This document shows positions 53,134-61,294 of a stretch of 64,000 bases of DNA, one piece after another. A model generated the notes under the pieces. That model did no database searches. It was not told the DNA's origin and saw only the letters and a list, made by a program, of their open reading frames with translations. The stretch spans positions 3,891,568 through 3,955,567 of the forward strand of contig NZ_LT907982.1 of NCBI RefSeq assembly GCF_900230215.1. Direction: 5' to 3'. Positions within the stretch are counted from its first letter, which is position 1; every line of letters starts with the position of its first letter. A program made the position numbers and the translations under genes. This stretch comes from Jatrophihabitans sp. GAS493 (lineage in GTDB: Bacteria; Actinomycetota; Actinomycetes; Mycobacteriales; Jatrophihabitantaceae).

Positions 53134-53193
53134 GCATCGGGGTGAAGGTCATTAGAGCCTCGGGGTGAAGCTCAGTAGTGCCTCGGGGTGAAG
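53134..53193. repeat. 23-bp tandem repeat between galK and cobIJ
   Basis: The core GCCTCGGGGTGAAG (first copy GCATCGGGGTGAAG) appears at 53134, 53157 and 53180, spaced 23 bp. The third copy encodes the final FTPRH of the convergent CobIJ protein, so the gene end appears to have been copied outward twice into the gap. Confidence 0.9.
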
Positions 53194-56899: not shown

Positions 56900-59800
56900 G
56901 TGATCCTGCTTCTCTCCACCTCCGACACCGACCTGCTCTGCGCCCGCACGAGCGGCCAGGCCTACCGGCTGGCGAACCCGGCCCGGGTCGCGGTCGATGA
57001 GCTGGCGCCCCTGCTCGACGGCGTCGACGCGGTGGTGCTACGACTGCTTGGGGGGCGCCGGGCCTGGGAGGAGGGCACCGACGCGCTGCTGGCCAGTGGA
57101 CTACCGGTGGTCGTACTCGGCGGCGAGCAGGCGCCCGACGCCGAGCTGATGGAGCTCTCAACCGTCCCGGCCGGCATCGCCGCGCAGGCCCACGAGTACC
57201 TCTCCTACGGCGGCACGGAGAACGTCGGGCAGCTGTACCGGTTTCTCTCCGACGCGCTGCTGCTCACGGGCCTCGGCTTCGAACCACCGCTGATCACCCC
57301 GAACTGGGGCATCCTCCCCCGCCCGGAGCCGCTCCCGCTTCCCGGCGGCGCAACCCGCCCGACCGTCGCCGTGCTCTTCTACCGCGCCCAGCAACTGGCC
57401 GGCAACACCGCCTACATCGACGCCCTCGCGACGGCCATCGAGACCGCCGGTGGACGGGCCCTGCCGATCTTCTGCGCCTCACTGCGCACCGCCGAAGCGC
57501 AGTTGCTGGCGGCGCTCGCCGAGGCCGATGCCCTCATCACCACCGTGCTCGCCGCCGGTGGCAGCACGCCGGCAGCGGTTGGCGCCGGCGGCAATGATGA
57601 GGACTGGGACGTCGGTGCGCTGGCCGCGCTGGACATCCCGATCCTGCAGGCGCTGGCCCTGACCAGCTCGCGATCACAGTGGGAATCCAGCGACGACGGT
57701 CTCACCCCCCTGGACACGGCGACCCAGGTCGCGATCCCCGAGTTCGACGGACGGATCATCACGGTTCCCTTCTCCTTCAAGGAGATCGACGCGGACGGGC
57801 TGTCGGTCTACGTCCCTGACCCGGAGCGCTGTGCGCGCGTGGCCGGCATCAGCGTTGGGCACGCCCGGCTGCGGCATGTGCCCAACTCGCAGAAGCGGGT
57901 CGCGCTGATGCTGTCGGCGTACCCGACGAAGCATGCCCGTATCGGCAACGCGGTCGGCCTCGATACCCCGGCCAGCCTGGTTGCGCTACTGCGGCTAATG
58001 CGCGAAGCGGGGTATGACATCGGGCCGCTCGACGGTCCGGACGCTCTGCCGGGGGTCGAGGCGCAGGATGGTGACGCGCTGATCCACGCACTGATCGCTG
58101 CCGGCGGTCAGGACGAGGGGTGGCTCACCGCCGAGCAGTTCGAGGGGAACCCGGTGCGCATCAGCGCCGCGGACTACCGACGCTGGTACGACACGCTTCC
58201 GGCTGACCTGCGGGCGTCGATGGAACAGCACTGGGGCCCGGCCCCCGGGGAACTCTTCGTGGACCGTTCGGCCGACCCGGACGGCGAAATCGTGCTGGCC
58301 GCGCTCACCGCCGGGAACGTCGTGGTGATGGTGCAGCCGCCACGCGGATTCGGACAGAACCCCGTCGCGATCTACCACGACCCGGACCTGCCGCCGAGTC
58401 ACCACTACCTGGCCGCGTACCAGTGGCTGCGCAACAGTTTCGGCGCCGACGCGATGGTTCACGTCGGAAAACACGGCAACCTGGAGTGGCTGCCCGGGAA
58501 GAACGCGGGAATGTCGGCCGCCTGCGGCCCGGACGCGGCGCTCGGTGACCTTCCACTCATCTACCCGTTCCTGGTCAACGACCCGGGTGAGGGCACGCAG
58601 GCCAAACGGCGGGTGCACGCCACCATCATCGATCACCTGGTACCGCCGATGGCCCGGGCCGAGAGTTACGGCGACATCGCCCGCCTTGAGCAGTTGCTGG
58701 ATGAGTACCAGCAGATCGCGGCGATGGATCCGGGCAAGCTGCCGGCGATCCGCGCGCAGATCTGGACGCTGATGGAGGCCGCCAAACTCGACCACGACCT
58801 CGGCTTGGAGAACCGGCCGCACGACGCGGAGTTCGACGAGTTCCTGCTGCACGTCGACGGGTGGCTTTGCGAGATCAAGGACGCGCAGATCCGGGATGGA
58901 CTGCACATTCTCGGGGCGGCACCGACGGGGACGGCCCGCGTCAACCTGGTGCTCGCGATGCTGCGGGCACGACAGGTCTGGGGTGGGTCGGCATCGCTTC
59001 CGGGCCTGCGTGAGGCGCTCGGTCTCGATGAGGAGGCCGGTGAGCTGGGTGCGACGGACGCCGTCGAGGCGGTGGCGCACGAACTCGTTCAGCGGATGGA
59101 GAACAGCGCCTGGGATGCCTCGGGGGTGGCGGGAATCGTCGCCGACGTGCTGGCCGATGCCCCGTTGCCGGCGCCACCGGACCGGCAGGCCGTCACCAAC
59201 GTCCTTACTTTTGCAGCAAATGAGGTGATTCCGCGACTGGCCGGGACGGCCGACGAGCTGACCCGGACGCTGCACGCGCTCAATGGCGGCTATATCCCGG
59301 CTGGGCCGAGCGGCTCGCCGCTGCGGGGTCTGATCAACGTGCTGCCGACCGGACGGAACTTCTATGCGGTTGATCCGCGGGCGGTGCCGAGCCGGCTGGC
59401 CTGGGAGACCGGACAGGCGATGGCCGACTCGCTGCTGCAGCGCTACCTGGCTGACACCGGCGAGTACCCACGTTCGGTGGGGATCTCGGCCTGGGGTACG
59501 TCGGCGATGCGCACCTCGGGTGACGACATCGCCGAGGTGCTGGCGCTGATGGGCGTGCAGCCGGTGTGGGACGAGGCCTCGCGTCGGGTGAGCCGCTGTG
59601 AGCCGATTCCGCTGAGCGAGCTGGGGCGTCCGCGGATCGATGTCACCGTGCGGATCAGCGGATTCTTCCGAGACGCCTTCCCGCACGTGGTGACGATGCT
59701 CGACGATGCCGTCCGCATGGTGGCCGAACTGGAGGAGGACCCGTCGCAGAACTACGTGCGTGCGCATGCCGACGCCGATACCGCCGAGCACGGGGACCGC

Positions 59801-60532
59801 CGCCGGGCCACCACCCGGATCTTCGGCTCGAAGCCGGGCGCGTACGGGGCCGGCCTGCTGCCGCTCATGGACAGTGGGAACTGGCGGGATGACAAGGACC
59901 TGGCCGAGGTCTACGCGGCGTGGGGTGGCTTCGCCTATGGTCGTGACCTCAACGGCCGCGAGGCGCGGACGGAGATGGAGTCGACCTACCGGCGCATCAA
60001 TGTCGCGGCGAAGAACACCGACACGCTCGAGCACGACATCGCCGACTCCGATGACTATTTCCAGTATCACGGCGGCATGATCGCCACGGTGCGCGCGCTC
60101 ACCGGAAGGGCGCCGAAGGCTTACATCGGTGACTCGACCCGGCCGGAGTCGGTGAAGACACGATCGCTGAATGAGGAGATGGCCCGGGTCTTCCGGGCCC
60201 GCGTGGTGAACCCGCGGTGGATCGAGGCGATGCGGCGGCACGGGTACAAGGGGGCCTTCGAGCTCGCGGCGACGGTTGACTACCTGTTCGGATATGACGC
60301 CACCGCGGGGGTCGTCGCCGACTGGATGTACGAGTCGATCACGAAGAGCTATGTGCTCGATCCGGAGAACCGCAAGTTCTTGGCCGAGTCGAATCCGTGG
60401 GCGCTGCACGGCATCGCCGAGCGGTTGCTGGAGGCGGTGGATCGGAAGATGTGGGCTGAACCCGACGCTGAGCTGCTGGCCGAGCTGCGCGAGGTTTACC
60501 TGGAGACCGAAGGCGACATCGAGGGCCGATGA
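56900..60532 (+). CDS. cobN: Cobaltochelatase subunit CobN
   Basis: The 1,210-residue protein matches the CobN/magnesium-chelatase-H family: APTG-like NWGILPRPEPLPLP region, PTVAVLFYRAQQLAGNT, the chelatase core MVHVGKHGNLEWLPGKNAGMS, DPGEGTQAKRR, YIPAGPSGSPLRG, GISAWGTSAMRTSGDDIAE and FGSKPGAYGAGLLPLMD. It inserts Co2+ into hydrogenobyrinic acid a,c-diamide with ATP, together with ChlI/ChlD-type partners encoded elsewhere. It is divergent from cobG across a 114-bp gap without a recognisable cobalamin riboswitch. Its TGA overlaps an ATG (ATGA), starting a chain of coupled small frames. Confidence 0.96.
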   Translation: MILLLSTSDTDLLCARTSGQAYRLANPARVAVDELAPLLDGVDAVVLRLLGGRRAWEEGTDALLASGLPVVVLGGEQAPDAELMELSTVPAGIAAQAHEYLSYGGTENVGQLYRFLSDALLLTGLGFEPPLITPNWGILPRPEPLPLPGGATRPTVAVLFYRAQQLAGNTAYIDALATAIETAGGRALPIFCASLRTAEAQLLAALAEADALITTVLAAGGSTPAAVGAGGNDEDWDVGALAALDIPILQALALTSSRSQWESSDDGLTPLDTATQVAIPEFDGRIITVPFSFKEIDADGLSVYVPDPERCARVAGISVGHARLRHVPNSQKRVALMLSAYPTKHARIGNAVGLDTPASLVALLRLMREAGYDIGPLDGPDALPGVEAQDGDALIHALIAAGGQDEGWLTAEQFEGNPVRISAADYRRWYDTLPADLRASMEQHWGPAPGELFVDRSADPDGEIVLAALTAGNVVVMVQPPRGFGQNPVAIYHDPDLPPSHHYLAAYQWLRNSFGADAMVHVGKHGNLEWLPGKNAGMSAACGPDAALGDLPLIYPFLVNDPGEGTQAKRRVHATIIDHLVPPMARAESYGDIARLEQLLDEYQQIAAMDPGKLPAIRAQIWTLMEAAKLDHDLGLENRPHDAEFDEFLLHVDGWLCEIKDAQIRDGLHILGAAPTGTARVNLVLAMLRARQVWGGSASLPGLREALGLDEEAGELGATDAVEAVAHELVQRMENSAWDASGVAGIVADVLADAPLPAPPDRQAVTNVLTFAANEVIPRLAGTADELTRTLHALNGGYIPAGPSGSPLRGLINVLPTGRNFYAVDPRAVPSRLAWETGQAMADSLLQRYLADTGEYPRSVGISAWGTSAMRTSGDDIAEVLALMGVQPVWDEASRRVSRCEPIPLSELGRPRIDVTVRISGFFRDAFPHVVTMLDDAVRMVAELEEDPSQNYVRAHADADTAEHGDRRRATTRIFGSKPGAYGAGLLPLMDSGNWRDDKDLAEVYAAWGGFAYGRDLNGREARTEMESTYRRINVAAKNTDTLEHDIADSDDYFQYHGGMIATVRALTGRAPKAYIGDSTRPESVKTRSLNEEMARVFRARVVNPRWIEAMRRHGYKGAFELAATVDYLFGYDATAGVVADWMYESITKSYVLDPENRKFLAESNPWALHGIAERLLEAVDRKMWAEPDAELLAELREVYLETEGDIEGR

Positions 60533-60603
60533 GCGATGCTCTCTTGGTCGGACGGCGAGCACGGGTGACGGCGGTGCACTTGGAGCGGGCGGTGCACGGG
60601 TGA
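60529..60603 (+). CDS. Coupled minicistron 1 (24 codons), remnant of original CobC-like start
   Basis: ATG 60529 overlaps the cobN stop (ATGA) and has GAGGG about 5 bp upstream, a much better start than that of the annotated phosphatase. It encodes 24 residues (MSDALLVGRRARVTAVHLER then AVHG) and stops at 60601-60603. Its MTAVHL-like part equals the present phosphatase N-terminus, so it looks like the original beginning of that gene, cut off by the 35-bp duplications. Whether a peptide is made is unknown. Confidence 0.45.
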   Translation: MSDALLVGRRARVTAVHLERAVHG

Positions 60604-60653
60604 CGGCGGTGCACTTGGAGCGGGCGGTGCACGGGTGACGGCGGTGCACTTGG
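60559..60653. repeat. 35-bp tandem triplication at CobC-like gene start
   Basis: Copies at 60559-60593 and 60594-60628 are identical; the third begins at 60629 and matches for 25 bp before running into the phosphatase gene. Each copy contains GTGACGGCGGTGCACTTG, the first six codons of that gene. Two added 35-bp units insert 70 bp, which shifts the frame by one. Confidence 0.97.
60600..60638 (+). CDS. Coupled minicistron 2 (12 codons)
   Basis: GTG 60600 overlaps the stop of minicistron 1 (GTGA), encodes 12 residues (MTAVHLERAVHG) and stops at 60636-60638, overlapping the phosphatase GTG at 60635 (again GTGA). It exists only because of the 35-bp duplication and probably serves as a relay for translational reinitiation rather than as a functional peptide. 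Confidence 0.4.
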   Translation: MTAVHLERAVHG

Positions 60654-61195
60654 TGCGGCACGGTCAGTCCGATTGGAACGCGGCTCGGCGCCTCCAGGGC
60701 CAGAGTGACGAGCCGGTACTGACCGAGCTTGGGCAGATCCAGGCTGGGGAGGCGGCCGAGCGGATGCGGTCGGTCGGTGTGTCGTCCATTCTCAGCAGCG
60801 ATCTGCGTCGCACTCGCCAGACCGCCGAGATCATCGGAACCCGGTTGGAGGTTCCGGTGCGCCTGGATCCGCGGCTGCGCGAGCAGTCCCTCGGAAAATT
60901 CGAGGGATTCGCGCTGCAGGCAGCCCTCGATGCCACCGAGGGGCACGACTGGACTGACGCCGATGCGGCGCTGGAGGCCGGCGAGAGCCTGCGCGATGTC
61001 GCTGTCCGGATCACCCCGCTGGTCGAGGAGATCCGCTCGGGGCTCTACGGAGACCAAGTTGTACTCGTCAGTCATGGCGACACCATCCGGGTGGCCCTGA
61101 CGGTGATCGCCGCACAGGATGGCGCGCCTGATCTCGGCGGCATCCAGTACGCGAGTCCAGCCAACGGGTCAGTGACGACGGTCAACTTCACCTAG
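60635..61195 (+). CDS. Histidine phosphatase, probable CobC (alpha-ribazole phosphatase)
   Basis: The 186-residue phosphoglycerate-mutase-fold protein has the phospho-His motif LVRHGQSDWN at its N-terminus, SSDLRRTRQTAEII, REQSLGKFEG and the second His in LVSHGDTIRV. Such enzymes in cobalamin clusters remove the phosphate from alpha-ribazole phosphate or adenosylcobalamin phosphate. Being coupled to cobN supports that, but the superfamily is broad. GTG 60635 lacks its own ribosome site; translation probably depends on coupling through the short upstream frames. Confidence 0.8.
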   Translation: MTAVHLVRHGQSDWNAARRLQGQSDEPVLTELGQIQAGEAAERMRSVGVSSILSSDLRRTRQTAEIIGTRLEVPVRLDPRLREQSLGKFEGFALQAALDATEGHDWTDADAALEAGESLRDVAVRITPLVEEIRSGLYGDQVVLVSHGDTIRVALTVIAAQDGAPDLGGIQYASPANGSVTTVNFT

Positions 61196-61222: not shown

Positions 61223-61294
61223 CTGCTCGCGCGTGGTCGGACTGCTCGCGCGTGGTCGGACTGCTCGCGCGTGGTCGGACTGCTCGCGCGTGGT
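61223..61294. repeat. 19-bp tandem repeat in convergent gap
   Basis: CTGCTCGCGCGTGGTCGGA occurs three times in full (61223, 61242, 61261) and once in part (61280-61294), filling most of the gap between the CobC-like gene and the convergent HNH gene. No hairpin or gene explains it. Confidence 0.95.

Follow-up and report, generated by a model that had tools for sequence, protein, structure and literature searches.

Mycobacterial interspersed repetitive units (MIRUs) were reportedly described by Supply et al. in 1997. In a 2025 review (PMC12548453), MIRUs appear as units at start codons, in which a small frame is coupled to the next gene at -4, i.e. stop and start codon overlap by 4 nt. The distance over which a post-termination ribosome can be handed on is disputed: for three native E. 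coli gene pairs, excerpts of PMC10666635 report that a gap of 38 nt cut reinitiation by 80-90% or abolished it, while other studies, as quoted in parts of PMC12548453, allowed coupling over longer gaps. A third precedent is the rnc-fpg1 junction of the M. tuberculosis complex, where, in the sections of PMC2734929 consulted, repeat length correlated with mRNA level and most of the other mycobacteria tabulated have 20 bases or fewer.

Here, a junction that combines several of these features is described at the end of a 64,000-nt stretch of DNA (the window) from a genome assembled as a 4.88-Mb single contig (G000). That end of the window is a cobalamin-synthesis region containing cobIJ, a precorrin-8X methylmutase gene, a CobG-like gene, cobN and cobA. 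The reading favoured here, which we hold to be reasonably probable, is that a translational relay leads from cobN to a downstream phosphatase gene and was recently lengthened when the start region of the phosphatase itself was duplicated in tandem; the verdict reached on the sequence is of a real and recent duplication that would preserve coupling.

The cobaltochelatase subunit gene cobN (56900..60532, + strand; 1210 aa from a GTG; TIGR02257 at 1143 bits, cut-off 822; PF02514) ends in TGA 60530-60532, which overlaps the ATG of a first minicistron as ATGA (60529..60532, +). Minicistron 1 (60529..60603, +; 24 codons, MSDALLVGRRARVTAVHLERAVHG) ends in TGA 60601-60603 inside a GTGA at 60600-60603, and the GTG of that GTGA opens minicistron 2 (60600..60638, +; 12 codons, VTAVHLERAVHG), which in turn ends in TGA 60636-60638 inside GTGA 60635-60638. 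At this last GTG begins an intact histidine phosphatase gene (60635..61195, +; 186 aa; PF00300, 1e-44) whose product starts VTAVHLVRHGQ. The gap of 102 nt from cobN to the phosphatase is bridged by the two minicistrons in series, and all three stop/start overlaps (60529, 60600 and 60635) are of 4 nt, with the overlapping codons typical of a termination-reinitiation coupled pair. Direct reading, TRF, a repeat search and the list of starts agree on this chain, as the original prediction had laid it out.

The minicistrons derive from a tandem array of a 35-bp unit (60559..60658, +), which carries one GTGA per unit and repeats the first codons of the phosphatase; TRF reports 2.9 copies with 98% matches and a score of 193. 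In a repeat search, the copy at 60594 is 100% and that at 60629 86% identical to the one at 60559; the array thus comprises two exact units of 35 bp and an incomplete third, which extends into the codons of the phosphatase itself. Read in the register of TTGG on the + strand, a diverged 36-nt copy A (60544..60579) is followed by the mutually identical copies B (60580-60614) and C (60615-60649) and by a partial copy D from 60650; copy A would be older than B and C. The peptide of minicistron 2 repeats the phosphatase's first residues, VTAVHLVRHG, and the array is thus a copy of the gene's own start. A duplication at the gene start had been proposed from the outset and is borne out, since the phosphatase start region is what has been copied and the array is absent from the related genome discussed below. 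Three copies sharing six start codons had also been proposed; the array stands, but each copy holds four starts (GTG, GTG, TTG and GTG), the last of which is located elsewhere in copy 3.

The 35-bp unit is local to this junction. A 19-base core has three exact hits in the 4.88-Mb genome, all inside the array, and no hits with one mismatch; with two to three mismatches there are 12 further hits elsewhere, against three in all for a reversed-pattern control, and weak distant relatives of the unit are possible. Of the two hits with 2 mismatches, the one inspected falls within long open frames. The 401-base junction matches the genome once, at itself, and with both it and the exact core at a single locus, a dispersed element is unsupported.

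The phosphatase scores 152.9 bits against PF00300 (histidine phosphatase superfamily, branch 1; gathering cut-off 21.7), and both RHG and SHGD, which are presumably functional, can be read in its sequence. Against TIGR03162 (alpha-ribazole phosphatase CobC) it reaches 101.7 bits, below the curated cut-off of 162.9, and is at most a putative CobC. Shortly after its stop comes another exact tandem array, with 3.8 copies of a 19-bp unit (61223-61294), and a gene for a 574-aa DUF222 protein (PF02720; 61322-63046, - strand) stands between the phosphatase and cobA. In the single other genome of the genus that was compared (G001), the phosphatase and a convergent cobA-like gene are separated by a few bases only; the DUF222 gene is missing there, implying an insertion here or a loss in G001.

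At the cobN junction itself, G001 is repeat-free: cobN ends in ATGA, which opens a 9-codon frame (MSALLALTP) that closes in GTGA at a phosphatase beginning VTSIHLVRHGQ. As G001 has a minicistron relay and no array, the relay is probably older than the repeats, which would have lengthened it. The two phosphatases are 85% identical as proteins with a dN/dS of 0.10, at a dS of 1.12 that is near saturation; judged by this comparison, the gene is under purifying selection and its GTG start is conserved between the two genomes.

The same comparison bears on another history, in which the gene once began in frame at ATG 60529, was disrupted when the array expanded by 70 bp and regained expression through reinitiation. 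Removal of two copies (70 bp) does bring ATG 60529 into frame, 36 nt before the GTG, just as the original prediction had calculated. The unduplicated ATGA start that it expected in a relative was found in part: G001 has the ATGA and no duplication, but the ATG opens the 9-codon minicistron ending at the phosphatase start, and no such in-frame ATG is present. Former in-frame initiation at 60529 followed by disruption is accordingly disfavoured and regarded as improbable, although with two genomes compared an in-frame intermediate in the G000 lineage is possible.

Further afield, cobN was matched in 13 of 24 genomes of the family, and among these 13 an RHG-type phosphatase motif is seen in G000 and G001 only, within the 904-1500 bases of sequence compared after cobN. 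A scan of contigs from named relatives returned 37 loci, the best of them 55% identical across a segment of 64 residues; the junctions compared here come from the G-coded genomes and from none of these 37 loci. In G015, from another genus of the family (L080), a 27-bp tandem repeat was seen by eye to carry the cobN stop codon.

According to the favoured reading of a lengthened relay, ribosomes ending cobN would reinitiate at ATG 60529 and end at 60603, restart at GTG 60600 and end at 60638, and restart once more at GTG 60635 on the phosphatase frame, which has no well-spaced ribosome site of its own and would be reached by serial reinitiation. ATG 60529 is preceded at 4 nt by GAGG, judged here a modest ribosome site where the original prediction had called it good. 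The only candidate before GTG 60635 is a GGAG 14 nt upstream, which is poor spacing for a ribosome site, and the phosphatase GTG of G001 has at best TGA. Judged by the effect of a 38-nt gap in the E. coli pairs, a bare gap of 102 nt should uncouple the two genes. Serial reinitiation, as first proposed, still seems the best reading of the chain; each relay step may slightly lower phosphatase yield, and the minicistron peptides are probably by-products.

Could the peptides instead be functional leaders, acting through ligand sensing or ribosome stalling? The first residues of minicistron 1 are MSALL in G001 and MSDALL in G000, but the peptides are otherwise unlike, at 9 versus 24 codons. Furthermore, minicistron 1 matches nothing in Pfam or NCBIfam at E 0.001, minicistron 2 mostly repeats the gene's own first codons, and a search of the whole window at Rfam gathering scores found a tRNA alone and nothing near cobN. 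Regulatory leader peptides are thus considered very improbable. The Rfam result also led to rejection of a riboswitch at the junction, and the folding of the RNA of 60515-60690 is not unusual (z -0.40).

A simpler possibility is that slippage duplicated the start region by accident, that the chain is arithmetic without effect and that the phosphatase is initiated alone, at GTG 60635 or at 60644/60653. GTG 60644 has GGTGA 5 nt upstream, as such an account would have it; against it, no well-spaced Shine-Dalgarno sequence precedes 60635, G001 has the same relay layout, and the starts downstream of 60635 are without a G001 counterpart, no ATG, GTG or TTG following the GTG of the G001 phosphatase within the listed range. 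How far the chain could arise without selection was assessed from random sequence. The 35-bp tandem repeat goes far beyond what chance would produce; the -4 chain as such does not. In random gaps of about this length and base composition, the probability of a complete -4 relay is 0.197 at the same length and 0.232 with the length free by 1 nt, while dinucleotide shuffles of the gap itself give 0.216. A chance of about 0.2 for a full relay is in keeping with a neutral origin, as is the abundance of tandem arrays in the genome (1.264 Mb contains 86 with a period of at least 15).

The arithmetic of duplication is stricter. When the G001 junction was duplicated in silico with GTGA-carrying units, a strict -4 relay was kept in 313 of 313 cases for periods of 3n+2 (one or two extra copies), in 0 of 315 for periods of 3n, and for periods of 3n+1 in 7 of 294 when a single copy was added and 95 of 294 when two were; the strict test replaced a loose one (-8 to +6) that 81-100% of duplications passed. 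Since 3n+2 duplications always keep the relay, the chain follows automatically when an NTGA start is copied at that period. Because 35 is itself of the form 3n+2 and the unit carries GTGA, each added copy means one minicistron more and an unchanged protein, and the expansion was probably tolerated through keeping the coupling. A general bias of array periods towards 3n+2 is not claimed: remainders of 0, 1 and 2 number 17, 2 and 11 in the strict set (30 arrays of period 20 or more, 1.264 Mb), but the looser set differs at 77, 16 and 19 (112 arrays, 2.064 Mb).

Full -4 relays were also counted in a survey that used rough gene calls and gene-like neighbours and that misses known relays such as the nuoJ-nuoK junctions of G017, G018 and G020. 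Within 2.064 Mb of G000, relays fill 13 of 346 gaps of 30-400 nt against 7.0 expected, a modest, twofold excess; within 0.4 Mb of G001, they fill 3 of 76 against 2.2 expected, and this lack of excess again suits an effectless chain. Weighed together, an accidental duplication with independent initiation of the phosphatase is rated rather unlikely, and the lengthened relay remains the preferred explanation of the cobN junction.

The nuoJ-nuoK junction offers a wider view of how such gaps are filled. Among 57 loci examined in related genomes, 52 junctions were located, G000 making 53, and the five not located by pattern (L247, L249, L258, L260 and L277) were dropped before counting; nuoJ was assigned without its motif in 5 of the 52 rows, and two rows (L188 and L189) represent an additional nuo copy in G010 and in G018. 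Direct -4 overlaps account for 36 of the 52, six others range from -8 to +6, one is at -11 and nine exceed 6 nt. With G000 included, the gaps above 6 nt measure 7, 23, 37, 37, 58, 72, 72, 88, 119 and 331 nt, and minicistrons coupled at -4 fill nine of the ten completely, leaving out only the one of 23 nt in L250. Every one of the eight gaps that reach 37 nt, a threshold chosen after the data were seen, is tiled end to end, which speaks against effectless arithmetic. The G001 junction has a 5-nt gap and no relay. By eye, the 41-nt minicistrons in genus g11 appear to be homologues, so the cases are not all independent, and a six-lineage chance product of 1.4e-4, in which the g11 genomes were counted separately, was discarded for that reason. 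Counted conservatively as G000, one ancestral g11 insertion, G155 and G090, the lineages give a chance product of about 0.0025 (multiplied by hand), or about 0.02 without G000, where the junction was first noticed. As evidence beyond chance, the tiling of nuoJ-nuoK gaps seems suggestive, not decisive.

Repeat-built relays are found elsewhere in the genome. In a sample of G000 comprising 100 stretches of 20 kb and the window (2.064 Mb), two arrays besides the one at cobN clearly feed a real gene via -4 minicistrons (period 20 or more, not divisible by 3). The first (L093) is a 95-bp unit forming three 32-codon frames, coupled at -4, before a phosphoribosyltransferase-like gene whose family scores are below cut-off; the counterpart junction in G001 has one 12-codon frame. 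The 95-bp unit matches G000 alone among the 10 genomes searched, and its core pattern has three hits in G000, all in its own array, so that it too was rejected as a dispersed element. The second (L129, 357-695) is an 83-bp unit between nuoJ and nuoK, with four frames of 28-29 codons at -4 and NuoK confirmed. There, four repeat-borne starts, that of nuoK included, each have their own GGAGG at 7 nt, so direct initiation is possible and competes with a relay. A search with the 83-bp unit also found the nuoF-nuoG junction (L230, 10949-11118; two 28-codon frames at -4, units 87% identical), and purN-purH (L231, 4239-4417) has two -4 frames of 29 and 30 codons at an 86-nt period, in which 42 bases match the 83-bp nuo unit at 88% on the opposite strand. 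The recurrence of this unit at nuoJ-nuoK, nuoF-nuoG and, in part, purN-purH indicates that the genome also holds a dispersed, MIRU-like unit. In a 400-kb sample of G001, no array was found feeding a gene of 80 codons or more.

Chains at L083, L086, L091, L099, L144 and window position 53142 were set aside for want of a real in-frame downstream gene, or for an antisense position, a spacing of -8 or an earlier in-frame start; of these, L091, where a 20-bp unit in 2.3 copies precedes a frame of 404 codons, is a possible relay. At L083 (15885-16332), 6.3 copies of a 71-bp unit, at 99%, stand between genes for an MFS and a GGDEF protein that are both encoded on the opposite strand; on the + strand each copy reads GAAGGAG, 8 nt and an ATG that opens the frame MTVVNWS, seven codons closed by TAG (frame by eye). 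One-minicistron relays precede a 441-codon gene at L233 3226 (G017, gap 61 nt) and L234 2466 (G015, gap 58 nt); in G017 this gene encodes NuoD.

Tentatively, start-anchored tandem duplication may be a recurrent way of lengthening operon junctions in these high-GC bacteria, in which NTGA-carrying units of period 3n+2 would survive through minicistron hand-on, copy number would act as a slow rheostat on the downstream gene and MIRUs would be the mobile special case; so broad a generalisation is a possibility that we would not yet call likely. A literature search, judged by titles and abstract openings, returned nothing about repeat-built relays at nuoJ-nuoK. Natural junctions with one, two, three and four minicistrons in series offer a direct test of how far post-termination ribosomes are handed on. 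The arithmetic suggests why repeats of period 3n+2 can survive at operon junctions, and the cobN junction suggests that local duplication, with no mobile element involved, can produce an architecture like that of MIRUs.

Set beside the described systems, the locus resembles ATGA/GTGA termination-reinitiation pairs, as presented in portions of PMC10666635 and PMC6728339, in its 4-nt overlaps and presumed mechanism, but here tiny frames in series bridge a gap of 102 nt. It resembles rnc-fpg1 in that lineage-specific tandem repeats fill the junction of adjacent genes up to the start codon; the differences there were measured as mRNA, and the available passages of PMC2734929 do not describe coupled minicistrons. 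With MIRUs it shares short repeated units at a gene start and a small frame coupled at -4 to the downstream gene, and MIRU copy number varies at some loci. Unlike MIRUs, which are dispersed at many loci and measure 40-100 bp according to PMC2734929, the unit here is of 35 bp, has its exact 19-base core at one locus only and was copied from the start of the gene itself rather than inserted. Differing in dispersal and size, the 35-bp unit, which to judge from its layout works like a MIRU, is not filed as one; closer to a MIRU is the 83-86-bp unit of the same genome, present at nuoJ-nuoK and nuoF-nuoG and, as a 42-base part, at purN-purH.
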